Below are positions 11,434-37,170 of a stretch of DNA of 64,000 nt, in pieces. The translations under genes and the position numbers were made by a program. The notes under the pieces are model-generated. The model had not been told where the DNA came from and searched no databases. It saw nothing but the letters and a program-made list of their open reading frames with translations. This DNA is from Victivallales bacterium (GTDB taxonomy: Bacteria > Verrucomicrobiota > Lentisphaeria > Oligosphaerales > Oligosphaeraceae), in contig JAFXUD010000034.1 in the NCBI GenBank assembly GCA_017535315.1, positions 1 to 64,000 of the forward strand, in the 5' to 3' direction. The first letter of the stretch is position 1; each line of letters begins with the position of its first letter.

Positions 11434-11480
11434 AACTACCTCACTTCAGAAGGGGCAAATTGGCATAATCCGCTACTTGT

Positions 11481-11614
11481 TCTGCGCCTTGCCGCTCCGC
11501 TTCGCTACGCGGCACGGCGTAAAAGAAATGAATGGGTCGTCTGTCCGTGGGTTTCGCTCGCGCCAAAGGCGCTTGCTTCACCCACGGCTACATTCCTGCC
11601 GCCGCTAACGCGGC
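11481..11614. repeat. dispersed intergenic repeat, inverted orientation
   Basis: The segment TGCGCCTTGCCGCT...TACGCGGCACGG, followed by CCGTGGGT (11545) and ACCCACGG (11580-11587), is the reverse complement of the arrangement at 32099-32230. It fills the gap between ispE and the FxsA-family gene. Confidence 0.85.
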
Positions 11615-11645
11615 TTATCATCATGAATATCAAACACTTAATAAC

Positions 11646-13026: not shown

Positions 13027-13081
13027 GGGGATTTTCCGTGTTTTTGTGGCGGCACATTGCCTACGCCAGTTTTTTGCGATG

Positions 13082-15073: not shown

Positions 15074-15231
15074 TTTTCGTCCCTTTTTATCGTTGTCCAC
15101 AAAAAAAAACTCATTTGCAGTTTTTTGCGTGTAACCGTCTTGCTTTTATAGATTATGTGTGTAGAATTAATATAACTAGTAGAATTGTAAAATAAAACGC
15201 AAATCACCAAAAAATAAATAAGAACACAAAA

Positions 15232-15930: not shown

Positions 15931-15970
15931 CTCTCCTCCATGCAAAGCAAAATATTAAAGGATTGAACTG

Positions 15971-16669: not shown

Positions 16670-16716
16670 GCCAGTTTATCAACACCAAATAAAATATCAA
16701 AGGAGATCCTCAGCAA

Positions 16717-17418
16717 ATGAAGAAACACTTCACCCTGATTGAGCTTCTGGTCGTCATCGCCATCATTGCCATTCTGGCCGCCATGCTGCTGCCTGCACTG
16801 GCCAAGGCACGCGAGAAGTCCCGCCAAATCTCCTGCGTGAACAACATGAAGCAGCTGGGTATCGGAGTCGCGCTCTACTGCGACGACTATAAAGACTATC
16901 TGCCCCCTGCAGACACCGCAGAAACCTCAAACAGGCGTCCAAACTGGACGGAAATAATGATGGGAACCGCGTGCACTTCCGCCAACCAGTACAACTGTGA
17001 GGGGGATTACATCTCCTCCAAGATTCTGTCATGCCCGAGCGCAACGGTTACGGGTGCCTGGTACTTTCGCGTCTATGGTATCAATTGGTATCTCGCCAAT
17101 CGCAGCTTCAGTTACAAGCGTAGCGCCTTGAAGTCGCACAGTTTGAAAATCATCTTCTGTGACACTGCTCAACATGACTCAAACGGCAATCCAACTGGCG
17201 GAATGTACCAGAGATTCACTCCCAACTGGCCTGGTATTCCTTACACCGACACAGGCTGGGGCTTCCCCAATGGCCGCCATATGGACGCCTGCAATACCCT
17301 TCATCTGGACGGGCATGTCCAGAACTTCAAAATTCCTGTCAGGGGCGCTCCCTACGCCTCTTTCCCATTCAACAAGAACGACGACAACAGCAAGCCGTAC
17401 ATTGATCCAAAATTCTAA
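16717..17418 (+). CDS. prepilin-like protein, array member 3
   Basis: 233 residues. It shares the leader (KKH|FTLIE), [21 protein letters not shown] and [15 protein letters not shown] with members 1 and 2 but is the most diverged of the three in the middle ([18 protein letters not shown]). AAAGGAG lies 12 bases before the start. Confidence 0.85.
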
Positions 17419-17491
17419 CCAGATGTTGCCTGTCTTTCTCTGGAAACACCAAAAAACAATATCACCTAATACCATCTAAAAAAAGAACACA

Positions 17492-18118
17492 ATGAAAAAA
17501 AGCTTCACACTGATTGAATTGCTGGTCGTGATCGCCATCATCGCCATTCTCGCCGCCATGCTCTTGCCTGCACTTGCCAAGGCACGCGAGAAGGCGCGCC
17601 AGATTTCCTGCGCCAGCAACCTGAAGCAGTTCGGCCTCGCAGTCACCATGTACACCGATGAAAACCAGGACTGGTTCCCCATTCAGAAAATCACAAGCAA
17701 GGAAGGCTGGATTTTCGGCACCAACATCGAAGGAGCCAAATACGACCTCTCCCCGAAGGACGGCGCCCTCTATCCATACATCAATGACGAGAAAATGTAC
17801 TTGTGCAAAAGCGACACTAACAAGGTAAACGCCACCTACGCTCGCAATACCAATCTCAGTACCGCCAAGACCAACGTCGTGGTGAAAAAGCCTTCCACAT
17901 TCGTAACCTTCGTCGAGGACAACAACAATGACGATGGTAATTTCGCCACAGCCTCCTGGAACTACACCGAAGACACCTTCAACAGCGACACCTCCACCAA
18001 TAAAGTCGGCAGGTTCCACACCAACAAATCCACCAACCTGCTCTTCACGGACGGCCACGTCGAAAACACCAGCAAGCCAGAAGACGAAATCCGTAAGCTC
18101 TGCGCACAGTACAAGTAA
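17492..18118 (+). CDS. prepilin-like protein, array member 4
   Basis: 208 residues; founder of a second sub-family. Leader [19 protein letters not shown], then [29 protein letters not shown], and near the end [17 protein letters not shown], in which the His-to-DG spacing is ten rather than nine. The absence of cysteine pairing seen in members 1-3 marks a different globular fold surface. No obvious Shine-Dalgarno. Confidence 0.83.
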
Positions 18119-18158
18119 TACCCAATCAACTCCATACAAGTCCAAGGGGAGAAAAAAC

Positions 18159-18794
18159 ATGAAAAAGAGCTTCACGTTAATTGAACTTTTGGTCGTCATC
18201 GCCATCATTGCCATCCTGGCGGCAATGCTCTTGCCCGCGCTGAGCAAAGCACGCGAAAAGGCCCAGCAGATTGCCTGCGTCAACAACCTCAAGCAGTTCG
18301 GCATCGGCAACACCATGTACAGCCAGGACAACAAGAACTGGTTCTGCGCATCCGCCCCTCAAGCAAAGTATGGCTGGATCTACGGCGGAACCCCTGTTTC
18401 GGAAGGCTCCTCCACATATAACTTGAAACCAGCTGAAGGTGCCCTCTTCCAGTACATCGGCGACGAAAAGACCTATCTCTGCGACAGCGCTTTGACTGAT
18501 AACAACGCAACTTACGCCCGCAATTCCCAACTTAGTACAGCTAAAAAGATCAATATGGTGAAGAAACCCTCCACGTTCGTCACCTTTGTCGAGGACAATC
18601 AGAACGACGATGGCAACTTTAACACTCCTGCCTGGAATTACTCGGCAGATCCCCAGACTTTGGGGGAAGATACTAACAATACGTTCGGCTACTGGCACAA
18701 CGGAGCCACCAACCTTCTTTTCTTCGATGCACACGTCGAGTCAACCAACAAACCCAAAGCAGACCTTCGCGTGCTTTGCGCCAAATACAAATAA
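18159..18794 (+). CDS. prepilin-like protein, array member 5
   Basis: 211 residues, leader KKS|FTLIE. It shares [28 protein letters not shown] and [18 protein letters not shown] with member 6. The terminal motif reads [16 protein letters not shown], with DA in place of DG. AAGGGGAG precedes ATG 18159; an in-frame ORF starting at 17928 overlaps member 4 and is not the real start. Confidence 0.83.
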
Positions 18795-18827
18795 TCCGCT
18801 TCCACGCATAGCCCCTCCAAAAGAACC

Positions 18828-19460
18828 ATGAAAAAACACTTCACTTTAATTGAACTTCTCGTCGTCATCGCCATCATCGCCATCCTCGCAGCCATGCTAC
18901 TGCCTGCCTTGAGCAAGGCACGCGACAAGGCGCAACAGATTGCCTGCGTCAACAACCTCAAGCAGTTCGGCATCGGCAACACTATGTACAGCCAGGACAA
19001 CAAGAACTGGTTCTGCGCAAACAAGCCAGAGTCTAAAGATGGCTGGATCTTTGGCGTAAGCAAGAACGGAGACGGAAATCCATACAATTTGTACCCTGCC
19101 GAAGGCGCGCTCTTCCAGTACATTGGAGACGAGAAGACCTATCTTTGCGACAGCGACCCGAACGACGTCAACGCCACCTACGCCCGCAACGCCCAACTTA
19201 GTACAGCCAAGAAAATCAACATGGTGAAGAAGCCCTCCTCCTTCATCACATTCCTAGAGGAAATAAGCAGCGACGACGGCAACTTCTCTGCTCCCAAATG
19301 GGACTACTCTGCCAATCCCCCAGCCTTGACCACTGGAAATTTCAATAACGTCGGAAGATTCCACGGGGATTCCACCAACATCCTCTTCACCGATTCCCAT
19401 GTAGAGTCAACCAACAAGCCCATCGAAGAGATCCGCTTGCTTTGTGCAAAATACAAATAA
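18828..19460 (+). CDS. prepilin-like protein, array member 6
   Basis: 210 residues, leader KKH|FTLIE, close paralogue of member 5. The terminal motif reads [16 protein letters not shown] (DS instead of DG). Members 5 and 6 end with a similar L-C-A-K-Y-K tail, also close to member 4. An intrinsic terminator (19489-19521) follows, closing the six-gene array. Confidence 0.83.
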
Positions 19461-19488
19461 ACACTTTTCATGACCATTTGACAGCTAT

Positions 19489-19521
19489 AGACCCCAGGCC
19501 TTTCTCCCTGGGGTCTTGTTT
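19489..19521 (+). terminator. intrinsic terminator of the prepilin array
   Basis: AGACCCCAGG / CCTGGGGTCT forms a perfect 10 bp stem with an 8-base loop, followed by TGTTTT. Confidence 0.88.
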
Positions 19522-19548
19522 TCATTTATAAGCCAATACAATACTGCC

Positions 19549-21291
19549 ATGGACAAAACCCTGCAACTAGCCTTTGACGAGGCTAAAAAATACGGTGTCG
19601 AGGCGGATTTCGTCACCGAGAAAACCCTGCCATCTTTTGAAATCAGACGCGCAAAAGGTCGTCTGGTCATCGCCGCGCCCAATTCCATCGAGACCCTCTA
19701 CGGCGTCTATGAGTGCGCGGAGCTCTTCTACGGTTACACCTTCTTCGAGCCAGGGCGCGACCGCTTCGACGCCAGTCTGAAGGTTGACTTCACCGCTCCA
19801 GGCGTGCCGAACGGACGCCTCGCCTTCGCGCGTCGCCCCCTCTTGAAACGGCGCGGCTTTATCCAGGAGTTCCCCTTCAATCATGAAACCCCGATGCTCT
19901 TTGACTGGATGGCAAAGAACAAGCTCAACTACCTACTCGTCTGGATGAAGTACTATGACGAACTCTCCGATGAACTCAAGGAGATGGCCGCCGTGCGTGG
20001 CATCACCATTGAAAGCGGCCACCATAACTTCAACTACTGGATACCTGGCAAGGTCTATGGCAAGACACATCCCGAGTTCTTCGCGGAAATCAACGGCAAG
20101 CGCATCACCCCCAGCAGTAACGCAGAGCTCCTGTTAAGCGAACAACTATGCACGACAAATCCCGAACTGCGCGCAGAAATCGCACGGCGGATGCTCGAAT
20201 ACTGCGACCAGCACCCCGAAGTCCACACCATCTCACTCGTCCCCAACGACGGCTTCGGGTGGTGCGAGTGCGATAACTGCTCCAAGTTCTACGACAAGAA
20301 TAAGAAGGGCGATTTCTACAGCCTATCCGAACACGTATATAAGGCGGACAAAATCTACCACGACCTCGTGCAGGACATCGCGGCCCGCGTCAACAAGGTA
20401 CGGCCCGACATCCAGATCACGATGGTCGCCTACATCAACTACTGCGCACCCTCGGAGGGCTTCACCCTCAAGCAGGGCATGGCCGTCCATTTCGCTGACT
20501 ACTGGCGCTGCATCAACCACGAAATCAGCGACCCGTCCTGCCCCATCAATTCCCACTATGCCGACGACATCCGCAAGTGGTGCAGCGTCAAGCGTGGAGG
20601 CGACGTCAACATCTACGAATATTTCATGGGGGTAAATTTCTACTTGTCGCTGCCAATGATCCACTTCCACGAGATGTTCCACGAGATGCTCTGGTACCGC
20701 AACACGGGCGTCGATGGTATTCTGACGCAGTTCCATATCCCGCACTGGTCTGTCTATGGGCTCAACTACTACTTCATGGCAAAGGCCGCACGCGGCGATG
20801 CGGAAGACGGCGTCATCTTCGATACGATGCGCCGTCTCTTCGGTGCCGACGAACACAAGGCATACGCCTTCTACAGCAACATCAAGAAGCTGCTCCTCAC
20901 GATGGGCACCTGCCACATCCCATACCCCTACTCCCTCTTCAGACGTACAAAGCAAGAAGACTACCAGACCCTTCTCATGCAGGCAAAGGAGCTCGTCTCC
21001 CTCGCCCCCGACGACCGTTTTCGCCAGGAGCTTGTCATCTGGATGGAGTACCTCTGTCGTTTCAAGGCATTCTTCGATCTCGCGCACGCAGACAAGGCGA
21101 CTGTCGCAGACGCACAGGCACTTCTCGACTGGGTTCACACACATCGCAATACGCGCGTGTTCGTGCATTCGCGCTTCGATTCCTACTTCAAGGCCATCAA
21201 GGAGGCTCTCCAAAGTGGTCGTAAGTGGATTCACTTCAACCTCGACTGGGAGGACAACTACATCCTACGCCACATCGAACTTCTGAGGTGA
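19549..21291 (+). CDS. DUF4838 / GH20-like hydrolase-family protein
   Basis: 580 residues without signal peptide. The N-terminal domain (NSIETLYGVYECAELFYGY) resembles the domain-2 fold in front of GH20/GH67-type barrels; the barrel region holds VPNDGFGWCECDNCSKF, a Cys-rich motif I associate with DUF4838 proteins. A glycosidase acting on uronides or amino sugars is possible but unproven. ATG 19549 is chosen because the in-frame TTG at 19516 falls inside the terminator stem. No Shine-Dalgarno is visible; TACAAT at 19537-19542 would place a transcript start on the ATG, so a leaderless message is possible. Confidence 0.65.
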   Translation: MDKTLQLAFDEAKKYGVEADFVTEKTLPSFEIRRAKGRLVIAAPNSIETLYGVYECAELFYGYTFFEPGRDRFDASLKVDFTAPGVPNGRLAFARRPLLKRRGFIQEFPFNHETPMLFDWMAKNKLNYLLVWMKYYDELSDELKEMAAVRGITIESGHHNFNYWIPGKVYGKTHPEFFAEINGKRITPSSNAELLLSEQLCTTNPELRAEIARRMLEYCDQHPEVHTISLVPNDGFGWCECDNCSKFYDKNKKGDFYSLSEHVYKADKIYHDLVQDIAARVNKVRPDIQITMVAYINYCAPSEGFTLKQGMAVHFADYWRCINHEISDPSCPINSHYADDIRKWCSVKRGGDVNIYEYFMGVNFYLSLPMIHFHEMFHEMLWYRNTGVDGILTQFHIPHWSVYGLNYYFMAKAARGDAEDGVIFDTMRRLFGADEHKAYAFYSNIKKLLLTMGTCHIPYPYSLFRRTKQEDYQTLLMQAKELVSLAPDDRFRQELVIWMEYLCRFKAFFDLAHADKATVADAQALLDWVHTHRNTRVFVHSRFDSYFKAIKEALQSGRKWIHFNLDWEDNYILRHIELLR

Positions 21292-21375
21292 AAATCGCCT
21301 TGCCAAATGGCAACTTGCCTTCTAGAGTGTATATTATCTTGTTGTTTTTCTGCATAAGCCCCAAAAGGAATTCCC

Positions 21376-22083
21376 ATGAAAAAGCATTTCACCTTGATAG
21401 AATTGCTGGTCGTCATCGCCATCATCGCTATACTGGCGGCCATGCTGCTACCCGCGCTTGCAAAGGCTCGTGAAAAGTCTCGCGCTGTCTCCTGCTCCTC
21501 CAACCTGAAGCAGATTGCCCTGGCTTCCGCCATGTACATGGATGACTTTGACGATTACATGCCCAGTTTCGAGCACTATTGGAAACAAACCAGCAAGGAT
21601 ACAATCCCCTATCAAAATCTGGTCCAAGGAAAAACAACCGCTGACCTTTCCTTCTGGATGGATGAAACCATGCGCTATACTGGCGACGTAAAACTCTACA
21701 GATGCCCCTCCTACGCTGATCAACCCTGGTATGGAGGTTATGGTTGGGGTGTCTATACGGCTGGTTACATAATGAACTATACAAGTCGCTGCCGTGCATC
21801 AGGCTACTACAGCAGTACCGACCGCTACATCTACGACGGCATCTCCCTCTCCATGCTGGAACACTCTCCCTCTGTCAACATTCTTGTCAGCGACCTCGGC
21901 CCTACTCATACCTCCCCTGCCGTCTGGACGACCCACTTCACGCCAACCAGCACCACCTACTTCGAGCAATATGCTCCGAAAACTCACAGCGAGGGTGCAA
22001 ACATCGCCTTCACTGACGGACATGTGCAATATTACAAGAAGCCAACTTATATGTCCCTGCCACTGCGCTACTACTTGAAGTAA
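21376..22083 (+). CDS. prepilin-like protein (H-X9-DG type)
   Basis: 235 residues; leader [30 protein letters not shown], and exact H-X9-DG ([15 protein letters not shown]). Rich in Tyr and Ser in the middle. AAAAGGA precedes ATG 21376. It lies between the DUF4838 gene and the oxidoreductase gene, a separate lineage from the six-gene array. Confidence 0.85.
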
Positions 22084-22124
22084 TTTTTTACCAACAACAT
22101 ACAACAAAACCATTGGAGACAAAG

Positions 22125-23165
22125 ATGAAAAAGGTTAAAATCGGTGTCATCGGCGCTGGCGGCATTGCCAGAAGGCGCACAATCCCTGGGATGCTCCTTG
22201 CAGACAACATTGAGCTGACCGCTGTCATGGATATTATGAAAATCGACGAGATAGCCGCCGAATTCAAGGTCAAGAAGGCCTATGACAAGGTAGAAGACCT
22301 GTTGGCCGACCCCAATGTGGAGGCCGTCTATATTGCCACTCCCGCCAGCAAGCACCTGGAGCAGATTCAGATGGCCGCTGCGGCTGGGAAGCACATTCTC
22401 TGCGAAAAGCCCCTCACGATGAAGGTCGAGGAGGCCATCCAGGCGGTCGCTGCCTGCAAGAAAGCTGGCGTTTATCTGCAGGAAGGGTACATGATGACCT
22501 TCCATGCCGCCCACCAGGCCATCCGCAAGGCGATTGACGAAGGCAAGATTGGCAAGCCCGTTTATATGCGTGCGCAGCTCTCCTGCTGGTATCCGCCGAT
22601 TCCAGGCGCCTGGCGCCAAGACCCCGCAAAAGGCGGCGGCGGTTCCCTCATCGACATGGCCACCCATCTTTACGACTTGCTTGAGTTCTTCAACGGCCCC
22701 ATCCGCAAGATTGTCGCCTTGACGGGCAACCAGGTGCAGAACTACAAGTCCGAGGACTCCTCCACCAGCTTGCTGGAATTCGCAAATGGCACCCACGCCA
22801 CCGTTGACGCCTTCTTCTGCGTTCCTGACGAGGCCACCAAGACCCGCCTGGAAATCTACGGCTCCAAGGGCGCCATCTTCACGGAAGGCACCATCGGCCA
22901 GAGCCAGGCTGGCGTGGCCGAGATCATCAGTGGACTTGGCGACGGCGGCTATGATGCACAGCAGTCCAAGGACGTTGTCCGCACCTTCCAGCCCCTCCCC
23001 TTCACGCCCAAGAACCCCTATACGGCGGAATGCGAGTACTTCGCCAACTGTATCCTCACTGGCAAAGCCCCCGAGGTCAATACGGGTGAAAACGCCATCC
23101 GCATCATGCGCATCACCCAGAAGGCATACGAATCCGCCAACGACGGCGTCGTGAAAACCATCTAA
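22125..23165 (+). CDS. Gfo/Idh/MocA family oxidoreductase
   Basis: 346 residues. The NAD(P)-binding Rossmann fold starts at IGVIGAGGIARRR; the family signature CEKPLTM follows near residue 92 and the C-terminal domain carries GGGGSLIDMATHLYDL (catalytic His region). It probably oxidises or reduces a sugar or inositol derivative in the cytoplasm. GGAG lies about 7 bases before ATG 22125; an in-frame TTG at 22113 overlaps that site and is rejected. Confidence 0.92.
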   Translation: MKKVKIGVIGAGGIARRRTIPGMLLADNIELTAVMDIMKIDEIAAEFKVKKAYDKVEDLLADPNVEAVYIATPASKHLEQIQMAAAAGKHILCEKPLTMKVEEAIQAVAACKKAGVYLQEGYMMTFHAAHQAIRKAIDEGKIGKPVYMRAQLSCWYPPIPGAWRQDPAKGGGGSLIDMATHLYDLLEFFNGPIRKIVALTGNQVQNYKSEDSSTSLLEFANGTHATVDAFFCVPDEATKTRLEIYGSKGAIFTEGTIGQSQAGVAEIISGLGDGGYDAQQSKDVVRTFQPLPFTPKNPYTAECEYFANCILTGKAPEVNTGENAIRIMRITQKAYESANDGVVKTI

Positions 23166-23168
23166 ACA

Positions 23169-23266
23169 ATTAGCAATTAGTAATGAGCAATTAGTAATTA
23201 GCAATTTCAATTTTAAATTTTTAATTTCTAATTGCTAATTTCTAATTTCTAATTTCAAATTGCTAA
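23169..23266. repeat. inverted heptamer repeat (ATTAGCA)n / (TTGCTAA)n
   Basis: Five left heptamers (ATTAGCA, ATTAGTA, ATGAGCA, ATTAGTA, ATTAGCA; 23169-23203) are followed by an AT-rich spacer and six right heptamers (TTTCTAA and TTGCTAA types; 23225-23266) in inverted sense. Architecture is the same as at 8387-8450 with a different unit. Confidence 0.88.
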
Positions 23267-23297
23267 TAGGAATGTCCACCCCAAAGGACCCCTGCCA

Positions 23298-23969
23298 ATG
23301 AAGAAGCAAAAACATTTTACGCTGATTGAGCTCCTGGTTGTCATAGCCATCATCGCCATCCTGGCTGCCATGCTGCTTCCTGCGCTTGCCAAGGCACGCG
23401 AGAAGGCACGCACCATCTCCTGCACCTCCAATCTAAAGCAAATCCTGCTGGGTACCCAGCTTTATGCAGATGACCACAACGACCTGATGATGGCCCTCTA
23501 CTACAACCGCCCAGGTGGTTATGACCTCCCCAATGGGACCAAAACCACCAACACGGCTTATCTTTGGTACATCGGAATTCACCCCTATGTGGGCGACCTC
23601 AAGACCTTCGACTGCCCCTCGTCGGTTGAAAGGTGGGATGGCTCCTACTCGGGCAGATTTGACTATGGCATGAGCGTCAAACTCCACAATAGCTGCAAAG
23701 GTTTTACGCGGGGAGAACTCAAGCGCCCAAGCAGTCTCTGCCACTACATCGAATGCGTCAGTTCGTCTGGCGACAGCTACAACGCCGACAATGACACCTC
23801 CACTGCCGCCAGTGCCGTCAATGGCTTGGAGTATGAAGCCCGCCATGGCGGTATGATTCAGGTTGGCTGGTCTGACGCCCATGTTGCCCCGATCCAAAAA
23901 CAGGGCTTGCCGACTTTCAGCGACTCCAGCACCTTCTGGCATCCAACCTACACAGGTTCCAATCCGTAA
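23298..23969 (+). CDS. prepilin-like protein (H-X9-D type)
   Basis: 223 residues; leader [20 protein letters not shown], then [16 protein letters not shown]. The terminal motif is [15 protein letters not shown] (H-X9-DA). AAAGGA precedes ATG 23298. Own terminator downstream (23998-24029). Confidence 0.85.
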
Positions 23970-26040: not shown

Positions 26041-27951
26041 ATGAGTCAAACGGAAGAAATAAAGGGTTGCCTTTTACGCGCATATGTTCCTGGTCAAGCG
26101 ACGATTACACGACGGATCAAGTATTTCCCATGTCGTATAGGACGGCTTGACAGCAATGACGTGGTTCTTGGAGACAGCTCGGTTTCAGGGCTTCATGCCG
26201 TGCTGGCTCTGGATGACAAGGACAACATCTATCTGGAAGACCAGTGGAGCACAAATGGCATCTATCTAGAAGGGCAGAGGGTTACGCAGTTACTGATTGA
26301 CCATCCTGTGCGATTGGTTCTGGGAAGGGTGACCCTTGATTTGGGTCTGACCGAAGACGACCTCTTTGTACTTCCGCCTTTTGTGCCCAAAAACAACAAT
26401 GCCCGACAGCCATTACCCGAGGAGGCTGTTTCATCTGAAAAAAAGATTGACATCATCCAGCAGGAGGAGCCGAAAAAGAAGACTGCTTCACGTCAACGGT
26501 CCACTGCGGAAACAGATATCTATGATGACAACATCGTCACGACAACCACGAGAGGCGGAAGCAAGGGGATTATCTGCCCGCACTGCTGGCACCGCTTCGA
26601 CGTTGGCGAATTCCTGTTCATTGCTCGCCACCAGAGCCTGATAGGGGATTCCGTTTTAGGCGCGGATGCCGCGCAGCGTTTCCTACCGTCACGCTTTACG
26701 CCAGAGGGAAATGCAATTGATGCGGCGGGAATGAGCTGTCCTGACATGGCCTGTCCCCGCTGCCACCTGCGGATACCGCAGGCTGCCAGTGAAATGCCGC
26801 CGCTGTTCCTCTCCATTGTCGGCGCGACGGCCAGCGGAAAATCCTATTTCCTGACGAGCATGACTTGGGACTTGCGTAATACTCTTTCCCGCAACTTTGC
26901 CATCTCCTTTACGGATACGGATGCAGTCAACAACCAGATACTCAATGACTTCGAGGAGACCATCTTTCTTTCCTCTGATCCAGACGAACTGGTTGCCCTG
27001 CGGAAAACCGAACTCCAGGGCGAACTTTACAACCAGGTTCTGTTGGACAACATGCTCATCAATCTTCCCAAGCCCTTCATGTTTACCGTCATGCCTGCGG
27101 AGCACCACCCTCGTTATGCGGAGGTATTGGACAAGATGTCACGCACGCTGGTGCTTTACGACAATGCAGGCGAGCACTTTGAGCCTGGCATGGATTCGGT
27201 TGACAACCCCACGACGCAGCACCTGCTTCATTCGGATACCATCTTCTTCCTCTTTGATCCCACAAAGGATGTGCGCTTCCGCAAGCGTCTCCGTGGCAGC
27301 GAAGATCCTCAGCTTGCCGCCCATGCCAGAGTGCAGCGACAGGAGATTATTCTGACAGAGATGATCAACCGCATCAAGAAGTATTCTGGCATGCGTTCGG
27401 GACGCAAGACCGCCAAGACCCTGATTCTCATGGTTTCCAAGTTCGATGTATGGAAGCAATTGCTGGACTTCGAACTGCCCGCGGAACCCTGGCAATGGGA
27501 ATCCGAATACAACACGAATGCCCTGGATGTGGATTTGATAAAGAACGTCTCCTTTGCCGTAAGGCAGCTGCTGGACGAAATATGCCCTGAAGTGGTCACG
27601 ACCGCCGAATCGTTTGCAGGCGAGGTCCTATATCTGCCAAACAGCGCGTTGGGGCATAGCCCCGAGGTTGGTGAAAATGGGATGGTTGGCATACGTCCCA
27701 TCGATGTGGAGCCGTTCTGGGTTTCCGTTCCCATGCTCTACTTCTTCTTTGAGCGCGGATTCATCCAGCCTATTCCAGAGCATTCGCGTCAAAAATACAA
27801 GGAGACTCCCTGCGAGTGCACGCTTTCAGGTGATATCTTCTTCATCAAACTGCCAGGGCGTCCAAAGCCTTTGCAAGTACCGATTTCCTTTGCTGGGCAT
27901 CAGCTTCGCTGTCCAGGAACGGACCTTTGGTTTACGGTTCCGACGCTTTAA
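26041..27951 (+). CDS. FHA / zinc-ribbon / P-loop GTPase protein (double-GTPase-like)
   Basis: 636 residues. The FHA domain spans about 28-100 (GRLDSND, SVSGLH, STNG), a phosphothreonine reader. A disordered charged linker (about 115-170) follows. A split zinc ribbon has C179/C182 and C238/C241. The P-loop domain has Walker A GATASGKS (261-268), a DxxG-type switch DNAGE (374-378) and SKFD (466-469) in the place of NKxD, so a GTPase of the TRAFAC type resembling the DO-GTPase2 family described in predicted bacterial conflict systems. Soluble and cytoplasmic. It lies 11 bp before the GAP1-like gene, a pairing known for these GTPases. Family name recalled from memory, not searched. Confidence 0.75.
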   Translation: MSQTEEIKGCLLRAYVPGQATITRRIKYFPCRIGRLDSNDVVLGDSSVSGLHAVLALDDKDNIYLEDQWSTNGIYLEGQRVTQLLIDHPVRLVLGRVTLDLGLTEDDLFVLPPFVPKNNNARQPLPEEAVSSEKKIDIIQQEEPKKKTASRQRSTAETDIYDDNIVTTTTRGGSKGIICPHCWHRFDVGEFLFIARHQSLIGDSVLGADAAQRFLPSRFTPEGNAIDAAGMSCPDMACPRCHLRIPQAASEMPPLFLSIVGATASGKSYFLTSMTWDLRNTLSRNFAISFTDTDAVNNQILNDFEETIFLSSDPDELVALRKTELQGELYNQVLLDNMLINLPKPFMFTVMPAEHHPRYAEVLDKMSRTLVLYDNAGEHFEPGMDSVDNPTTQHLLHSDTIFFLFDPTKDVRFRKRLRGSEDPQLAAHARVQRQEIILTEMINRIKKYSGMRSGRKTAKTLILMVSKFDVWKQLLDFELPAEPWQWESEYNTNALDVDLIKNVSFAVRQLLDEICPEVVTTAESFAGEVLYLPNSALGHSPEVGENGMVGIRPIDVEPFWVSVPMLYFFFERGFIQPIPEHSRQKYKETPCECTLSGDIFFIKLPGRPKPLQVPISFAGHQLRCPGTDLWFTVPTL

Positions 27952-27962
27952 GAGGAGGGACC

Positions 27963-28892
27963 ATGGCGCACGAACTGATATACACATCGGCGGAGCGGGG
28001 GCTTCGTCCTGGGACGCGAGGGTTCTGCACGGTGGCGCATACACAGGGGATGACACCGCAGAACATACAACTGCTGGAGGCTTTGAGTGCCTACAAGAAC
28101 CTCTACAGTGTGCATGATGCCCAGGAAAAGGCGGAGCCGATTGCCTGGAGTCATATTACCAGCAATCTCATCGGGCGTTCCGCCAGCATTGTTTCGCGGG
28201 TTGGCTCCACGGCTGCCGACCATACGGGGCGAAGCAACAAGCTGGCCCATCATGTCCTGCTGCCCGCGCGGGAGCGTCCGCAGGGTGGGCCAGCCTGGCT
28301 TTGCCAGCAGATTGGATTCCTGCGGGATGCGTGGGATGAACAGCCTCATATCATCAGCAATCAGAAAGAGATACCAGCAGGGGATTATGAGCCCAAGCCT
28401 GCAACGGCATGGGAGGCGTTGACAGGCGACCCCGCCTACGCGGCGTTCCTTCCCAATGCCTTCAAGACAAACAGCGATTCAATCGTCCTGATAGCCTTTG
28501 CTCCAGGGACGGACATGCTTTCCCTTATATCAGAATCCCTTGCCATCATGGAGCCGTCGCAACGCTGGAATGTCACCTTCACGACATATTTTACGCAGCT
28601 GGCAGTCGGTGCGACCTGTGCCTGGCGCTGTTGCGTGGCGGATTCGGAGGTGCTACGGGAGGCGCGGCGGAATCCCAGAACGATTGTCTTCGATTTGACG
28701 GAGACGCTGCCACCTGTCCCCACGGGGCCGCTGGCGGAGCTAGCAAGAAGTGGACAGAGTCCCGTTGTTCCAAAGATTCAAGTCAATGTGCCCCCTGATC
28801 CCAACAAGCCAAAGAAGTTCATCTTGATGGACAACAGAAACATCAACCAGCTTACGCTGAAGCCCCGCAATCCAAACGCTCCCAGAAAATAG
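27963..28892 (+). CDS. GTPase-associated protein 1 (GAP1-N2)-like protein
   Basis: 309 residues. The N-terminus (HELIYTSAERGLRPGTRGFC, then TVAHTQGM) matches what I recall of the GAP1-N2 domain, which occurs beside double-GTPase proteins. VGSTAADHTGRSNKLAHHV near residue 85 continues that domain. The C-terminal tail (Pro/Asn/Lys-rich, about 265-309) looks disordered. This protein is shorter than full GAP1 proteins, which usually carry middle and C-terminal domains. GAGGAGGG precedes ATG 27963. It is probably the direct partner or regulator of the preceding GTPase. Confidence 0.7.
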   Translation: MAHELIYTSAERGLRPGTRGFCTVAHTQGMTPQNIQLLEALSAYKNLYSVHDAQEKAEPIAWSHITSNLIGRSASIVSRVGSTAADHTGRSNKLAHHVLLPARERPQGGPAWLCQQIGFLRDAWDEQPHIISNQKEIPAGDYEPKPATAWEALTGDPAYAAFLPNAFKTNSDSIVLIAFAPGTDMLSLISESLAIMEPSQRWNVTFTTYFTQLAVGATCAWRCCVADSEVLREARRNPRTIVFDLTETLPPVPTGPLAELARSGQSPVVPKIQVNVPPDPNKPKKFILMDNRNINQLTLKPRNPNAPRK

Positions 28893-28984: not shown

Positions 28985-31900
28985 ATGACTCCCGAACAAT
29001 TATTGGTTCAGCAGATACAGCAGACATTGAACGCAGACCAGCTGGAACGCACATCTTCGATAGAGGATTTGGCGTTGCAGTTTGCGGAGATGTGTATTGC
29101 CGCCAACACACGTCTGGCGAACTGTGCAGACTACATCTCCAAGGGGCGCCGTTCGGAAGCGGTGAATGAGGCGCACAACCTGCCAGATCTGCTTCAATTG
29201 GCCCAGCTTTTGGAGTTTGAGGGCATCAAGAAATGGCGGAATCTTTGTTCGGACATGGAATTGGCAGTTGCCCCGCCACTTAATTCCGAAAACTTAGAGA
29301 AGTTGCGTGCCGCCGTTACTGCAGAGGAGGAACTCACTCCGCTTTTGAAAGAATATAGACGGTGCGTTTACCAGGGCGACCACCGCGGATGCATTGTCCT
29401 TCTTCGTAAAATCATAGAGCTTGATTCTGGCAATCCCAGTTGGAAGGACAACCTTCGTCCTCTGGAGGAAGAGGCGATGCCTGAGTTGCTTCAGCAAGCG
29501 GAAAGGGCCTTGTCTTCGGGAAATCATGCCCGCCTGAAGACGGTTTTTGAGGAGCTGAATGCACCTCATCGAGTTGTGCAGCCACCAGAGGAGTTGATGG
29601 GCCGTATCAAGCGGGAGCTGCTTTCGGAGCGGGCGGATGATGTGAAGGTGGAGGCGGAGGCGTTGCTTGTCAAGATTCGTTCTGCCTTGGATAGTTCTGA
29701 CGGCACGCTGGTTGAAGCTCTTTTGGAGAAGAGCTCGGCTATTGAGCAGAATGACGCCTTCTTGAACAAGCCCGAAAGCTGGGACGGCATTTTGTCAGAA
29801 GCGCGTGAATTTCTGGACATGCAGCGTCGTCGCCGTGAGAAGCAAGCAGATTTTCTGAAAGCGATTGATGAAATGCAGGCGATGCTTGCCCGAGGAGATT
29901 ATACGGAGATGGAGCTTCGCCATGAATGGGAGCGTCTTCTTGCGTGGGAGTTGCCAGTGTCGGATATGCTGCGCCACCAGGTCAAGGAGATTTTCGAGGA
30001 TATACGGCAGCGTAAGCGCCGTAAGGTCCGCATGGTAACCATTTCTATTGTGTCGGGAATCATCATTCTCCTGCTGGTGGGGAGTGTTGTTGCGTATATT
30101 AAGGCAAAGCAGCTGAGCAATGATGCCAAGGTGGCGGAAGTCGAGCGGCTTTGGCAGGAGGGAAAGTATGGCGAACTGGAACTCTATCTGGATAATTTGT
30201 CCAAAAGTGATTTGACCGTCGTTAGAATGCCGAAGGTGGAAGATATAGCGCGACAGCTACAGGAGCACAGGAAGAAAACGGCGAAATACAAAGAGACCTT
30301 TGATTTTGCGATGGACAATCTTTCGACGATTCGCAGCAACAAATATGACGGTGCAACCACCGAGGAGATTCTCCAGCATCTGAAGGATGCGGAGCTTGCC
30401 GCGAAACAGCTTTCAGACGAAGCTGGTCTGGCGCGCATAAAGGCCTGGCGCGGTGGATGGGAGGATTGGAAGGCAAGGCGCAGCCTTCAGGCGAACACAA
30501 TATTGAAAAGCGCTGTGGCCACGTTGAGTGCAGCTCTTGAAGAGCAGAAGCGGAGCCCTTTCACGGATTTTGAGAATGAAAAAGAGAAAATAGATAGTTT
30601 GATGACGACGGCGGATGAGGCGAGGCCGTTTGCAGGGTTGGCTGACGAGATGGAGCGTCAGCGGTTTCTTGATGTCGTGGAACGTTTGGCGACTTGGCAG
30701 CGCGAGTTTGATCAACGCTACAAGGCATTCCAGTCGGTCAGTTCTGAATTGGAGAAGCTCCGTCTCTCCATTCCTGCGGCCATAACGGACTTGTCTCGCT
30801 ACAAGAGCCTGATGGAACGTTATATTGAGCTAGCCCCTGAACTGGATGAGCAGCGGAAAGGATACCAGGAAATCTTGAAAGATTTTCCCTGTTATGAAGG
30901 CGCAATGTTACGGGCCTCCTCAATGATGATGAGTGTTCCCCCCACTCCTGAGATGGCGAAGGAACTTAAGGCGCAACTTGCTACGGAAGGCGAAGGCGCC
31001 ACTCTGACAGGCAGTATCTGGGAGACGGATGTGCGGGCTGCGCTTTACCTTTATGATCTTCATACGGAATTGAGGAAAAAACTAAACAATCTTCTGAATG
31101 CCAGTCCCGAGCTTTTCAACCTCTATTATGCGAGATACCGCAGGATTGGTGAAGAAAAATGGCATAAACTCTATTCTCCGCGACCGCTGATGAGCGCTCT
31201 GGACAAGGACGATGCTACTGTCAAGCTCTATTGGGGAAATGTCTATTTTGCGGACAATCCCCAGGGCAAACCGACTTTGGTTCATACAAAGGTTGCTTTC
31301 CCTGACCGCCTGAGTTCGAAGGACTACGAGGTGGAGATGCATATTCGCAAGGAGGATGACCGCTGTGAATATGCAAAGTTCCTGTTGCGTTTTATTTCCG
31401 AGGGCTCAGAGGCAAAGAACATGCCTGTGTATCTTCTCAATGGAATACAGCAGCTTTTTGAGGATAACAAGATTGAGCCTGTGTTGCGTGCGCTGCTCAT
31501 CAAACGTATCTTGGCCATGTTGGTTGACGGTCTGGGGGATATCATCCCCGAAATAGGCAGAATGGCCAGGGACTTTGCCTTGATTCCCACGGATGTCCCG
31601 TGGATGAACGAGGAGCATTCCGAGGTCAGGGCGGCAGAACGCAAACTGCGAGAAACAGTGAAGACCACCATTCGTCCAGAGGTGGTCATCTCCAGGCTGG
31701 AGCTCCATTGTGCGCTTTTGGAGGCTACGCTGAACAGCAAGGTACGTTGTGTTGGCTCCTGCGTCTGGGGGCAGGATGGTCGTCTGGTATTCGACTTGCG
31801 TGGTGGGCAGTATAACGAGTTGTGGGGGTGTTTTGTCTCTGCGGCGGGTATGATGCCTCATTTCAGTGTTGTTTCCAGAGATGGAAAGAGTATCCTTTCT

Positions 31901-32050
31901 GGAAATGCGGACACATGCCGTTTTGCCATGCCGCTCTTTGCGCCTGCGCCTGGTTATTCTGCCTTTGATATTTTGGATTCGCTGAAGAAGAATACGGAAT
32001 TACTGCAGGGCATACGATTCCCGTATGCCTGGCCAAGGAATGTAAAATAG
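28985..32050 (+). CDS. large bitopic coiled-coil membrane protein, unknown function
   Basis: 1021 residues. About 350 residues of charged helices (cytoplasmic if topology is N-in) precede one membrane helix (about 350-372, TISIVSGIIILLLVGSVVAY) flanked by RKRRKVR. A helical, coiled-coil-rich region of about 300 residues follows, then a mixed domain of about 300 residues. It is not recognised as a known family. ATG 28985 is preferred over the in-frame TTG at 28979. It lies 92 bp after the GAP1-like gene and 250 bp before the PilM-like gene. It probably serves as a scaffold linking the cytoplasmic GTPase to the envelope; this is inferred from topology only. Confidence 0.65.
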   Translation: MTPEQLLVQQIQQTLNADQLERTSSIEDLALQFAEMCIAANTRLANCADYISKGRRSEAVNEAHNLPDLLQLAQLLEFEGIKKWRNLCSDMELAVAPPLNSENLEKLRAAVTAEEELTPLLKEYRRCVYQGDHRGCIVLLRKIIELDSGNPSWKDNLRPLEEEAMPELLQQAERALSSGNHARLKTVFEELNAPHRVVQPPEELMGRIKRELLSERADDVKVEAEALLVKIRSALDSSDGTLVEALLEKSSAIEQNDAFLNKPESWDGILSEAREFLDMQRRRREKQADFLKAIDEMQAMLARGDYTEMELRHEWERLLAWELPVSDMLRHQVKEIFEDIRQRKRRKVRMVTISIVSGIIILLLVGSVVAYIKAKQLSNDAKVAEVERLWQEGKYGELELYLDNLSKSDLTVVRMPKVEDIARQLQEHRKKTAKYKETFDFAMDNLSTIRSNKYDGATTEEILQHLKDAELAAKQLSDEAGLARIKAWRGGWEDWKARRSLQANTILKSAVATLSAALEEQKRSPFTDFENEKEKIDSLMTTADEARPFAGLADEMERQRFLDVVERLATWQREFDQRYKAFQSVSSELEKLRLSIPAAITDLSRYKSLMERYIELAPELDEQRKGYQEILKDFPCYEGAMLRASSMMMSVPPTPEMAKELKAQLATEGEGATLTGSIWETDVRAALYLYDLHTELRKKLNNLLNASPELFNLYYARYRRIGEEKWHKLYSPRPLMSALDKDDATVKLYWGNVYFADNPQGKPTLVHTKVAFPDRLSSKDYEVEMHIRKEDDRCEYAKFLLRFISEGSEAKNMPVYLLNGIQQLFEDNKIEPVLRALLIKRILAMLVDGLGDIIPEIGRMARDFALIPTDVPWMNEEHSEVRAAERKLRETVKTTIRPEVVISRLELHCALLEATLNSKVRCVGSCVWGQDGRLVFDLRGGQYNELWGCFVSAAGMMPHFSVVSRDGKSILSGNADTCRFAMPLFAPAPGYSAFDILDSLKKNTELLQGIRFPYAWPRNVK

Positions 32051-32301: not shown

Positions 32302-34140
32302 ATGAGAAAGAATGGACGATATTTAGGATTGGATATTGGTGCGGCGGGCGTCAAGGCCGTGGTGCTGAAGCGAACAGGGAAAGAAGTTTCACTTGAAGCA
32401 ACCGACGAGCTTCATACGCTGGAGGAGGGCATCCTGAACGAACAGGAGCTCCACAGCTCCATTGCCCAATGGCTTCATGGAAAGAAGTGGGACAAGTTGC
32501 CTACTGTGATTGGCCTTCCACAGTATCTTGCACAGACGATGCTGAAGGAATTTCCTGTCATCAAGAACGCGGCAAAACTGGATGTTCTGGTCAACAGCGA
32601 GATATCCCAGGTGGCAGGGCTTTCGGAGGAGACTTTGGTGCATGACTACTGTCAACTTCATGAAGGCGGAGGACGGAAAAACGGTTTTCTTATCGGGCTT
32701 TGCCGCGAGCAGACCATACGGGAGCGCCTGACAGGATATGAGGTGGCGGGCATTCGGACGGATGCTATTGCGCTTGGGGGAATGGCCGTTGCAAATGCAT
32801 ACCTGACACTGAAATATAATGCGAGTGAGAACGGCGATGCTTCAAAGCCAGTGCTTTTGTTGGATTTGGGGAGAGAGAACGCTGTCGCCGTGATTATGGC
32901 AGGCAAAGTTCCGCTTTTTGTCAGTTCCCTGATGGTTTCAGGGGAGCGTTTTGAGCAGGCCGTGAAAAGCGCAAACCAGCCTGTTGAAGGGAAGAAAAAG
33001 GTAAGTCTCTCCGCCAAAAGCGTGGAGGAGATTAACCTCCTGGATGAAATCGGCACGTCGCCAGTCATGCTGGCCGCGAATCTCCTGGAATCCGAAATAC
33101 AGGGAGTTGTGGAGAACTGGCGTGCGCAGGAGGATTATGAGGTCGGAAAAACCCCCATTGCCAAGGTGATGGTTTGCGGTGGCATCGCAAAGATGAAAGG
33201 GTTGTGTGAATGGCTGACAGAACGTCTGGAAACGCCAGTTGAAGTGTTTGGCCCCGAAGTGGACGGTATGGTGCGCCCTGAATTGACGATGGCATACGGT
33301 CTGGCAGCGCAATGTGCTGAAGATGAGAAGGCCGCTTTGTCACTCTCCATGCTTCCTGCCGACATTCGCTGGCGGAAGTTGCGTGAGGCCAATTATCCTT
33401 TCCTTGTCGCCGCTTTAGCCCTTTGGGTGGTTGTCATGGCGGTATTGGGCATTCTCTGGTATGTCAGGACTACTTCTCTTATAGGAGCATATATGGAACA
33501 ACAAGAGAAACTGGAGAAGTGCGGCAATTTGATTGGGCGCATAGAGAGTGCACAGAATGCCCTTTATGATCGCGAGGCGAAGGTTGTTCCTCTAGTGGAG
33601 GCGGGCTGTCAGCCAGTGAGATTGAAAAATGCCCTTGAGGAAATTGGAAAGGCATGTGCCGCAGACGACTGGATTGTCTATCTTGCTGACGAGACCAGTT
33701 ATCATCAAGCCAAGGAGGACGAAAGGCGGGATGAGAGGCGATCCAGTTCTTCTTTGGACATGTTTGGTGGAGCAAAGGGGACGGACTACGGAGATGCCTC
33801 AGGGGTGCCAGAGTTCCCGATTCGTATGCTGCCAAGGGATATTTCTGTGACGACAAGGTTCATCACGGCGAGTTATGCCCCACTTAAGCCGTCGCAGCGA
33901 TTTGCGCCTGCTACGGAATTCGCGAAAAAACTGAATGAAGGAGGGCTTTTCAAAGGGGTGGACACCCTGCAGGGACAGGAAAGCAGAGTTGATATTTTTG
34001 CCCCGTGGGCTCAATGGTTGAAAGGCGTGAGGGGACAGTTCGTTTGCTTTTCTTTTGCGTTGCCATTTGCAGATGCTGATGTGCGTAAGGAACTCCTCCC
34101 AATTCCTGTTGTCAAAGGGAAGGGCAAATCCAAGAAGTAG
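32302..34140 (+). CDS. PilM-PilN-like fusion protein
   Basis: 612 residues. Residues 1-350 are an actin-like ATPase fold of the PilM type: GLDIGAAGVKAVVLK (phosphate-1 loop) and a second loop LLLDLGRENAVAVI, with KVMVCGGIAKMKGL as the adenosine motif. A membrane helix at about 367-390 (FLVAALALWVVVMAVLGILW) leads to a periplasmic coiled coil and alpha/beta domain as in PilN. In type IV pilus systems PilM binds the cytoplasmic tail of PilN; here they are one chain. ATG 32302 is chosen because the fold starts there. The next two genes encode PilO- and PilP-like proteins. Confidence 0.75.
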   Translation: MRKNGRYLGLDIGAAGVKAVVLKRTGKEVSLEATDELHTLEEGILNEQELHSSIAQWLHGKKWDKLPTVIGLPQYLAQTMLKEFPVIKNAAKLDVLVNSEISQVAGLSEETLVHDYCQLHEGGGRKNGFLIGLCREQTIRERLTGYEVAGIRTDAIALGGMAVANAYLTLKYNASENGDASKPVLLLDLGRENAVAVIMAGKVPLFVSSLMVSGERFEQAVKSANQPVEGKKKVSLSAKSVEEINLLDEIGTSPVMLAANLLESEIQGVVENWRAQEDYEVGKTPIAKVMVCGGIAKMKGLCEWLTERLETPVEVFGPEVDGMVRPELTMAYGLAAQCAEDEKAALSLSMLPADIRWRKLREANYPFLVAALALWVVVMAVLGILWYVRTTSLIGAYMEQQEKLEKCGNLIGRIESAQNALYDREAKVVPLVEAGCQPVRLKNALEEIGKACAADDWIVYLADETSYHQAKEDERRDERRSSSSLDMFGGAKGTDYGDASGVPEFPIRMLPRDISVTTRFITASYAPLKPSQRFAPATEFAKKLNEGGLFKGVDTLQGQESRVDIFAPWAQWLKGVRGQFVCFSFALPFADADVRKELLPIPVVKGKGKSKK

Positions 34141-34155: not shown

Positions 34156-35022
34156 ATGAAAAACTGGATGAAGATACATCAGATTCTTTTGGCGGCTCTA
34201 GTGTTTGCTGTATTGGGGCTTCTGGTTGTTTATTTTCTAGTGTTTTCCCCGAAGAAGCAGGAACTTGAGGAGGTGCAGAGCGAGGTTTCGAGGCTTCAGG
34301 AGCGTTTGCGTGGCAGCGTCTGGCCGCTTGATGCAGACAGGCTGGAGCGTTTTCTGGTGGAACTTGAGAAAGAGTACAAAGGAGATCAGAAAAGCTCTGC
34401 CTTGACGGCACATTCCGCAGAGGCTTTGCGCAAGGCCTCTGCTACTTTTCTTTCCAAAATCACCAGTGAATATGGTAATTTGGAGGATTTCATGGCGGCT
34501 GTTTCGCGCCTTGACTACCAGTCGGAGTACAATCGAGTGCTGACAACGCTTTCGGAAAAGGGCGTCAAGCTGGAGCCTTCTGTTTTGAACATGAACGAGG
34601 ACATGCCCACTCCCTATATGTATCAGTGCATGATTCAGATCTGGACGGTGGAGAAGTTGGCGGAGATTGCGTTGAAAAGTGGCGTCGAGTTGTCAACGTA
34701 TCCAGAACGCAAGCGAGGCCAGGGGCAGATAGCGCGAATCAGCGTGGAGCCAATGCGTGCTTTTTTCGCGTCTCCGAGCAATGAGCGTCCATATTTGCTG
34801 GAGTTTCCCGTGAAGCTCAGCATCGAAGGCACGCTGGATTCATGCATGGGCTTCATCGACCGTTTGTGCGGAGATGACGTTTTCATTCCTCCCAAGCAAT
34901 TTGAGATATTTTCGTTTCCCCCAATGAAGAATGAAAGGGGTGAAGATGGATTCTTCAAGGGCGGACAACTCCGCATGAATCTGACTTGTGCCTCTTTTCT
35001 TGTTCTTGGCAAGGTGAACTGA
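34156..35022 (+). CDS. PilO-like bitopic membrane protein
   Basis: 288 residues. A short cytoplasmic N-terminus, one membrane helix (about 8-29, LAALVFAVLGLLVVYFLVF), a coiled coil (KKQELEEVQSEVSRLQERL) and a periplasmic alpha/beta domain give the PilO/GspM plan. GAGGG lies 8 bases before ATG 34156. It lies 15 bp after the PilM-PilN-like gene. The assignment rests on topology and gene order; sequence similarity is weak to the eye. Confidence 0.6.
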   Translation: MKNWMKIHQILLAALVFAVLGLLVVYFLVFSPKKQELEEVQSEVSRLQERLRGSVWPLDADRLERFLVELEKEYKGDQKSSALTAHSAEALRKASATFLSKITSEYGNLEDFMAAVSRLDYQSEYNRVLTTLSEKGVKLEPSVLNMNEDMPTPYMYQCMIQIWTVEKLAEIALKSGVELSTYPERKRGQGQIARISVEPMRAFFASPSNERPYLLEFPVKLSIEGTLDSCMGFIDRLCGDDVFIPPKQFEIFSFPPMKNERGEDGFFKGGQLRMNLTCASFLVLGKVN

Positions 35023-35032: not shown

Positions 35033-35677
35033 ATGAAATACCTGCTTTTATATTTTCAAAAGAACTGGGAGATGGCGATCTTGGCTGCCACCATTATCCT
35101 TTTACTGTTCATTGTATTGCCGTTTTTTGTGTCGGGAACAACATTGGATGAGATTATGGGGAGTGGAAAGGCGGCCCTAAAACGCGAAAGTGCGCTTTCA
35201 AAGAACTCTTTTGCATTTTTGGATGATGGTGCCCCTGCATTGGAATTAGAACGGGATCCCTTCAAGCTGACGGTTAAGGCTCCAGAACCGCCAAAACCGA
35301 AGCCAGCGCCTCCTAAAACTGAACCGAAACCAGTCGAAAAGCCCAAGGAGCCGCCAAAGAAGGCACCTGCTCCCGAGCCAGAGCAACCAGCCAAGGGCCC
35401 CGTTAGGCCCCAGGTGGTTTTCCAATACGTTCCTGGTGTGATTGCCTTCACGTTTCAGCAGATGAACAGCACGGGTAAGACCGTTGCCATCATTTCTGCA
35501 CAAAGCAAGGGAACACAGCCGCAGAACTACACGGTTGGCGTCGGCGAAGAGGTGAACGGGGCCATAATACAGTCCATCTCAGATGAGACGCTGATTGTGC
35601 AGGATGCGCAGAAGCGACGCGTCGCGATTCCCATCGGGAGCAAACGGCAGCTTTGGATGAGGATTAAAAAAGAATAG
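35033..35677 (+). CDS. PilP/GspC-like bitopic protein with Pro-rich linker
   Basis: 214 residues. One membrane helix (about 12-33), then a long Pro/Lys/Glu-rich linker (about 85-130, PPKPKPAPPKTEPKPVEKP), then a small beta domain (about 135-210) with GEEVNGAIIQSISDETLIVQ, the pattern of the PilP and GspC homology region. Such proteins connect the inner-membrane platform to an outer-membrane secretin. GAGGTGAG lies just before. GTG 35024 and ATG 35030 are alternative starts. Confidence 0.6.
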   Translation: MKYLLLYFQKNWEMAILAATIILLLFIVLPFFVSGTTLDEIMGSGKAALKRESALSKNSFAFLDDGAPALELERDPFKLTVKAPEPPKPKPAPPKTEPKPVEKPKEPPKKAPAPEPEQPAKGPVRPQVVFQYVPGVIAFTFQQMNSTGKTVAIISAQSKGTQPQNYTVGVGEEVNGAIIQSISDETLIVQDAQKRRVAIPIGSKRQLWMRIKKE

Positions 35678-35685: not shown

Positions 35686-37170
35686 ATGGCAGAATCACGC
35701 ATTTACACCCAGTTAAAGGGGGCTTTCATCGGTAAAAGCCCGTTGGTTTATGTTTATAGTCCCGAAGAAGTGCGTGTCATGCGTACGCTGACAAGGCTGG
35801 CGGAGGAGTTTGGCGTACCATTGCGCAGTTGGTCCAGCGTGCGTGGACTTGATGGTGCGGGGACGGAGACGATGGAGCCAGTGGCGGCCCTGATGTCCAT
35901 CCTGCAAAGCGGCGAGGATGGAGCCTACGTCTTCAAGGACTTGCCAGCTCATTTCAGCGACCCCAGGGTGGTTCGTGCGCTTCGTGAGGTTTACAATGAT
36001 GGCCAGGCACATGAGAAGCGTGTCGTATTCATCACCAGTCCAGAGTTCAACATACCTGAAACGCTGAAAAAGGAGCTGCACACGCTGGAGATTTCCACGC
36101 CTGATGACGGTGAAATCGCCATTCAACTGCATGATGTTTCCAAGAATAATCCTGATTACACGATTCCAGAGGATGCCATCCATGAAGTCACGCTTGCATT
36201 GAAGGGGCTGACGGAAAACGAAATCGCCTATGTTTTGCATCGGGCATGCCGCATCCCGAACGCCACCAAGGACCAGTTGCTTGACGAGATATTCGCGGAG
36301 AAAAAGAGCGTGGTCAAGAAGTCTGGTTTTCTGGAGTTTTCCCCGCCTCGCTGGGATATCAACAGCCTGGGGGGGCTTGGCAATCTGAAGGAGTGGCTTC
36401 AGAAGCGCTCGCACATGTTTACGCGTGAGGCGCTGGAGGCGGGCGTGCCAATCCCCAAGGGACTGCTTATGATGGGGGTCAGCGGGTGCGGAAAGAGCCT
36501 TGCGGTGAAAACCATCTCCGCGCTTTGGAACATCCCCATGTTCCGCCTGGATATGAACCTTGTATTTTCAGGCATGTACGGCTCTCCTGAAGAGGCGTTT
36601 CACAGGGCCTTGCAGACGATTGAGGCGGTCTCCCCCGCCGTGCTCTGGATAGATGAAATCGAGAATGCGCTGGGGCTGGATGATTCAGGCCAGCGCATCG
36701 CCTCCCACATCTTCTCGTCGTTTCTGACCTGGATGCAGGAAAAGCCGCCGCTGGTCTTCATCGCCGCCACGGCCAACAAGATTCAGGCTCTTCCAGCCGA
36801 GGTTCTTCGAAAGGGGCGTTTTGACGAGGTCTTCTTCTGCGACCTTCCTTCAGGTCCTGAACGTGTTGAAATTATGAAGATCCATCTGCTGAAAAACGGC
36901 GCCAATCCCGATGACTTTGATTTCAAGATGCTACAGATTATGACGGAGGGATGGAACGGCGCTGAAATTGAGCAGGCCATTATCTCAGCACGCACGGAAG
37001 CCTTCTACGAAAACCGCATGTTCACGCAGAGGGACCTTTCCTCCGTCATGGGAAGAATCGTCCCGCTTTCGGATACGATGGAGCAGCAGATTAAGGCCAT
37101 CCGCAGTTGGGCCTTCTCCAGGGCAACCCCTGCGTCAAAGTTCGGAAAGTCTGCTGCCAAGACAAAATAA
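35686..37170 (+). CDS. Ycf46-like AAA+ ATPase
   Basis: 494 residues. A degenerate N-terminal P-loop-like domain (about 1-200, with LAEEFGVPLRSWSSVRGL) is followed by a canonical AAA+ module: Walker A GVSGCGKS (about 262-269), Walker B VLWIDEIE (D323/E324), sensor 1 FIAATAN, and a C-terminal helical lid. This is the plan of the cyanobacterial/plastid Ycf46 family. It lies 8 bp after the PilP-like gene, so it belongs to that operon; it may provide the mechanical ATPase that a PilB would otherwise supply. That role is inferred. Confidence 0.82.
   Translation: MAESRIYTQLKGAFIGKSPLVYVYSPEEVRVMRTLTRLAEEFGVPLRSWSSVRGLDGAGTETMEPVAALMSILQSGEDGAYVFKDLPAHFSDPRVVRALREVYNDGQAHEKRVVFITSPEFNIPETLKKELHTLEISTPDDGEIAIQLHDVSKNNPDYTIPEDAIHEVTLALKGLTENEIAYVLHRACRIPNATKDQLLDEIFAEKKSVVKKSGFLEFSPPRWDINSLGGLGNLKEWLQKRSHMFTREALEAGVPIPKGLLMMGVSGCGKSLAVKTISALWNIPMFRLDMNLVFSGMYGSPEEAFHRALQTIEAVSPAVLWIDEIENALGLDDSGQRIASHIFSSFLTWMQEKPPLVFIAATANKIQALPAEVLRKGRFDEVFFCDLPSGPERVEIMKIHLLKNGANPDDFDFKMLQIMTEGWNGAEIEQAIISARTEAFYENRMFTQRDLSSVMGRIVPLSDTMEQQIKAIRSWAFSRATPASKFGKSAAKTK

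Follow-up and report, generated by a model that had tools for sequence, protein, structure and literature searches.

Genes for an FHA-bearing DO-GTPase and a short GAP1 protein head a probable six-gene operon shared with a pilus/secretion-type platform across an order of Lentisphaerota

In this study, we analysed a 64,000-nucleotide stretch of a contig from a Victivallales bacterium (JAFXUD010000034.1; the window) and relate a GTPase/GAP1 gene pair to its genomic surroundings. In line with an earlier note on this DNA, the pair consists of two open reading frames at 26041-27951 (636 amino acids) and 27963-28892 (309 amino acids), 11 bp apart, the first of which encodes an FHA domain and a CxxC...CxxC arrangement ahead of the motifs GATASGKS, DNAGE and SKFD, all at the places given there. 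The note did not recognise that these two genes open a conserved operon of six, the rest of which includes genes for a pilus/secretion platform. Its features are as follows:

26041..27951, + strand: FHA–split zinc ribbon–DO-GTPase2 reading frame, 636 aa, no transmembrane helix found
26131..26316, + strand: FHA domain, residues 31-92 (PF00498, E 7e-14; alignment)
26575..26763, + strand: split zinc-ribbon-like segment, CPHC (179-182) to SCPDMACPRC (232-241), assigned from invariant cysteines
26821..26844, + strand: G1/Walker A, GATASGKS (motif, alignment)
27160..27174, + strand: G3, DNAGE, a Walker B with glutamate (motif, alignment)
27436..27447, + strand: G4, SKFD (alignment; K and D invariant)
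27643..27651, + strand: G5-like SAL (535-537), invariant, following a predicted strand
27963..28892, + strand: short GAP1 protein, GAP1-N2 (1-128) and GAP1-M (150-246) with a low-confidence tail and without C-terminal module (Pfam, model)
28985..32050, + strand: single-pass membrane protein of ~1021 aa, the third core component (transmembrane helix 346-377 by hydropathy; order-level conservation)
32302..34140, + strand: PilM-PilN fusion (PilMN) with actin-like domain, transmembrane helix 362-395 and periplasmic part (PF11104, 42 bits)
34156..35022, + strand: PilO/GspM-like protein (secretin-cluster paralogue E 3e-38; PDB PilO E 0.017)
35033..35677, + strand: PilP/GspC-like protein with transmembrane helix, proline-rich linker and C-terminal domain (family HMM E 8.5e-11 to the secretin-cluster gene)

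By hydropathy, the GTPase and GAP1 proteins have no transmembrane helix and the other four proteins have one each. Elsewhere in the window, the minus strand encodes a large surface protein with repeats, whose C-terminus carries RTX-like GGxGNDxL motifs (48552-51503), and has a phage-like stretch (53435-64000) including a tape-measure-like reading frame (59617-61965).

The FHA domain of the GTPase protein scored 52.4 bits in the Pfam search (cut-off 20.7), and FHA proteins of solved structure, among them Rv1747 and GarA, were matched as well. In an alignment of 24 relatives, the basis for residue invariance throughout this protein, the phosphopeptide-site residues S49, H52, N72 and G73 are invariant and R35 is nearly so. 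C179/C182 and C238/C241, along with C233, are likewise invariant, as for one split ribbon, a segment in which the structural model is of low confidence. Within the P-loop domain, invariance extends to S265, G266, K267 and S268 of GATASGKS (residues 261-268), to all five positions of DNAGE (374-378), whose Walker B glutamate is typical of DO-GTPases (PMC7159879), and to K467 and D469 of SKFD (466-469), the first position of which is S, A or P among relatives. SAL, absent from the motif list of the earlier note, is also invariant. A profile search, which that note had proposed as a check, gave the window protein a marginal match to DO-GTPase2 (PF19993), at 27.6 bits with a cut-off of 27 and over profile positions 86-172 only; all 24 relatives matched the same profile at E ≤ 0.01.

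The 309-residue partner matched both GAP1-N2 (83.8 bits) and GAP1-M (43.1 bits) in the corresponding search. As the two domains occur together in 24 of 24 orthologues, the suggestion that this protein holds just the N-terminal GAP1 domain was wrong: it comprises N2 and M, and the C-terminal part alone is missing. We found no C-terminal domain after M in this protein, no Pfam GAP1-C match in five long GAP1 proteins scanned either, and no solved structure matching GAP1 by sequence. On these profile matches, the assignment to the DO-GTPase with GAP1 family holds.

Searching for relatives of the fused FHA-GTPase gave 27 loci, with titles naming Lentisphaerota/Victivallales, Verrucomicrobia, Kiritimatiellota or uncultured organisms. 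Most encode a protein 63-70% identical over its whole length, and with this many relatives chance is excluded as the source of the observed features. The flanks of related loci show one order on one strand, namely FHA-GTPase, short GAP1, ~1020-aa protein, PilMN, PilO and PilP, with joints that are short or overlapping, often by 4 bp, as would suit co-transcription. The ~1020-aa protein is kept in the order-level loci with a long enough contig. It gave no FN3 match in the Pfam search, and a KRRK ahead of its transmembrane helix suggests that its N-terminus would lie inside. Of the 16 order-level loci with contig room for it, 14 have PilMN after the core, the exceptions being L107 and L108; in two of the 14 (L012, at 8476-9282, and likewise L014) a reading frame for a HAD-like phosphatase stands between the membrane protein and PilMN. 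At L141 (1-4100), the ~1020-aa protein comes directly after the GTPase, with no GAP1 between. On neither side of the operon, before the GTPase or after PilP, does any gene family recur across most loci. Over six shared loci, mean identity is 79% for the zinc ribbon-GTPase part, 51% for GAP1, 37% for PilMN, 32% for the 1021-aa protein, 30% for PilO and 28% for PilP. Identity matrices computed for the six proteins are correlated (r 0.72-0.94, Mantel p ≤ 0.004), as expected under joint inheritance; neither this correlation nor the linkage, both observed among related genomes, is proof of interaction.

To place the last three genes, it helps that the same genome holds a secretin-PilMN-PilO-PilP-GspE cluster (L120): between its secretin and GspE genes lie paralogues of the three operon genes, in the same order. 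The operon itself has no secretin, assembly ATPase or PilC/GspF, and differs further in having the GTPase, GAP1 and membrane protein genes in front; a secretin and an assembly ATPase are both present in the paralogous cluster. PilMN matches solved PilM structures (E 1e-19) in addition to PF11104, and comes nearest to the NCBIfam Amuc_1101 family (E 4.5e-17, under that model's curated cut-off). Amuc_1101 is part of MUL2 (Amuc_1099-1102), an Akkermansia locus tied to mucin handling (PMC13174399). The PilO and PilP assignments owe more to paralogy and gene order than to direct matches, the PDB match being weak for PilO and not significant for PilP. Judged by this homology, PilMN-PilO-PilP is an alignment subcomplex of the type IV pilus/type II secretion kind. 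The secretin-GspE cluster was also found in relatives fetched for the secretin-linked copy, some of them cut by contig ends. A tree of PilMN groups the secretin-linked copies in a single clade (95/93) that excludes the operon copies, if one distant third PilM (L121) is set aside. One old duplication would be the simplest reading of this tree, which is no proof, the root being unsure. Tandem type-IV-pilin-like genes of the PF07596 type also lie in the window (15232-19460, 21376-22083 and 23298-23969). We rejected the upstream pilin-like genes (15232-23969) as dedicated substrates, since about 90 such matches are spread over the genome and nearness to the operon is thus not specific.

Whether the Pil genes are functionally tied to the core or merely share its transcript is a question on which the exceptions bear. 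Three loci, L107 (a region shared with L027), L108 and L142, have the core without adjacent Pil genes, so that the coupling is not essential to it; they may represent ancestral states or secondary losses. Together with the ExbB-type genes that adjoin the core elsewhere in the phylum, they would fit a free-standing envelope or signalling module. We consider this unlikely, given the linkage in 14 of 16 loci, the 4-bp overlaps and the correlated divergence, and genomes that lack the FHA-GTPase also lack the extra Pil copy: at least two PilMN copies were counted, by hand from tables, in about 30 of the 37 genomes with an FHA-GTPase and in none of the 11 without, among 48 genomes of the order that are not independent. 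A further alternative takes the P-loop protein for an ATPase standing in for the pilus assembly ATPase missing from the operon, and some relatives do show weak ResIII, DUF87 and STAND matches. Nevertheless, the invariant K-x-D at G4 and SAL at G5 are features of a GTPase, and most top fold matches of the model of its GTPase half are Rab, Ras, Rac, SR-beta and elongation-factor G domains, none of them below E 0.001. The reading as a GTPase is supported by these motifs and weak fold matches, and the ATPase alternative appears highly improbable.

The core families are those of the GAP1-N2 conflict systems (Kaur et al. 2020; PMC7159879), in which invader sensing would lead through the GTPase to effector release in an immune-like manner. 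Like those membrane-proximal systems, the operon pairs a DO-GTPase that has the Walker B glutamate, and would carry a zinc ribbon, with a downstream GAP1 containing N2 and M. Here, by contrast, FHA stands ahead of the GTPase, GAP1 ends after M, a ~1020-aa single-pass protein takes the place of their FNIII protein, and constant PilMNOP genes that of their variable effectors. Elsewhere in the genome are a paralogous GTPase/GAP1 set and a third DO-GTPase2 (L033, G000:C86:116000-135000, at 9268-10464; 43 bits), the latter with no GAP1-N2 match nearby, and in the window an AAA ATPase gene directly after PilP (35686-37170) matches PADLOC IetA at 53.9 bits, all of which would speak for a conflict system. 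This AAA family, however, was found near the operon in only two other loci, after PilP in L011 and upstream of the FHA-GTPase, beside a small FHA protein, in L108. As for the downstream AAA, nitroreductase, PPIase and lipoprotein genes as possible parts, AAA alone recurs, at these three loci.

Against a conflict system, six constant genes recur with no variable effector among them. Carriers of the operon are gut and sediment bacteria of an order of Lentisphaerota, and a GTPase of the DO-GTPase2 type is present in 40 of 48 genomes of that order, a few of which have a non-FHA paralogue only. None was found in the phage, plasmid and viral collections searched, by which we rejected carriage on mobile elements, and PADLOC gave no match for the GTPase or GAP1, by which we rejected a defence system as PADLOC defines one. 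A GTPase domain conserved at ~79%, held by most genomes and absent from those collections is unfit for an arms-race effector system, and we regard the conflict reading as distinctly unlikely.

Related systems help put the operon into context. One of them lies in the same genome:

L032 (G000:C49:153000-172000), 7218-17791: paralogous GYF–zinc ribbon–DO-GTPase2, long GAP1 and ExbB-type system

It encodes a 602-aa GAP1 with a transmembrane tail, a 1059-aa transmembrane protein showing a weak relationship to its 1021-aa counterpart, a MotA/TolQ/ExbB protein (PF01618, E 5e-9) and two small transmembrane proteins, which are ExbD-like by position and N-terminal helix alone, Pfam giving no confirmation. 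Among 38 loci fetched for GTPase relatives, mostly outside the order (L069-L106), an ExbB relative occurs in 16 and PilMN in none; the stretches differ in length, and absence is not always informative. These ExbB-linked systems of Verrucomicrobiota share the zinc ribbon-GTPase, GAP1-N2/M and a homologous ~1000-aa membrane protein with the operon, and differ in having a long GAP1, a GTPase whose N-terminus bears GYF, FHA or neither, and the ExbB-type gene with two small membrane proteins where the operon has Pil genes. Since FHA (L069, L074, L075, L076, L080) and GYF vary across long-GAP1 systems, the N-terminal domain appears to be an exchangeable input. The main text of Kaur et al. 2020 mentions neither pili, PilM and ExbB nor DENN and longin, and the passage on FHA in that text concerns a different system (PMC7159879).

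The predicted structures offer a lead, but no test, on how GTPase and GAP1 might relate to eukaryotic proteins. The GAP1 model (pLDDT 79, pTM 0.76) has the topology bbabbba followed by alpha/beta, and its best Foldseek match is C9orf72-SMCR8 (E 0.02, not significant); its top 50 include two more C9orf72-SMCR8 entries and FLCN-FNIP2 (E 0.96), none significant. A DENN module consists of longin, DENN and d-DENN, the first of which is regarded as a relative of the Roadblock GAP MglB (PMC3521125). No Pfam DENN or longin match was found in 24 GAP1 proteins up to E 10, which leaves the fold search as the one source of this idea. The GTPase-half model has a mean pLDDT of 63, with residues 1-94 and 112-184 unreliable, and we therefore make no claim from it on the zinc ribbon or switch I. 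That GAP1 could be a bacterial longin-DENN-type regulator with the DO-GTPase as its Rab/Ras-like partner, a module plugged into an ExbB-type proton channel in many Verrucomicrobiota or into a duplicated pilus alignment platform in this order, is a proposal we put forward as tentative and rather doubtful.

Taken together, we favour, with evenly balanced confidence, a phospho-regulated GTPase switch on a dedicated pilus/secretion-type platform. The two genes would form the switch half of an envelope machine, with the cytosolic GTPase and GAP1 docked on a PilM-PilN-PilO-PilP inner-membrane platform, the ~1020-aa protein's cytosolic half and/or PilM being the probable docking site. This platform, which would be a dedicated one, is a paralogue of the secretin-GspE (MUL2/Amuc_1101-like) one in the same cell, and may serve a filament or secretin. 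GAP1 would tune the GTP/GDP state of the GTPase, which would hydrolyse GTP; this state would switch assembly or activity of the platform, and the periplasmic domains would relay the signal outward. FHA would act as a gate by binding a threonine that a Hanks kinase of the cell has phosphorylated. The earlier note had read FHA as a sign of Ser/Thr phosphorylation by a kinase encoded elsewhere; the conserved pocket and about 20 Hanks-type kinase matches in the genome, none inside the window, make such control possible, but no particular kinase can be named. GTPase control of pili exists in Myxococcus, where MglA, MglB and SgmX act on the pilus machine (PMC7519303). The analogy lies in a GTPase with a cognate regulator; MglA itself is small and Ras-like, and the Roadblock protein MglB serves as its GAP.

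In conclusion, the description of DO-GTPase/GAP1 systems has been computational, and they were classed as conflict systems. Our analysis suggests that a switch family so far placed under anti-invader conflict here controls a cell-envelope machine. If GAP1 were indeed DENN-like, this would also inform the question of a prokaryotic origin for one eukaryotic class of GTPase regulators.
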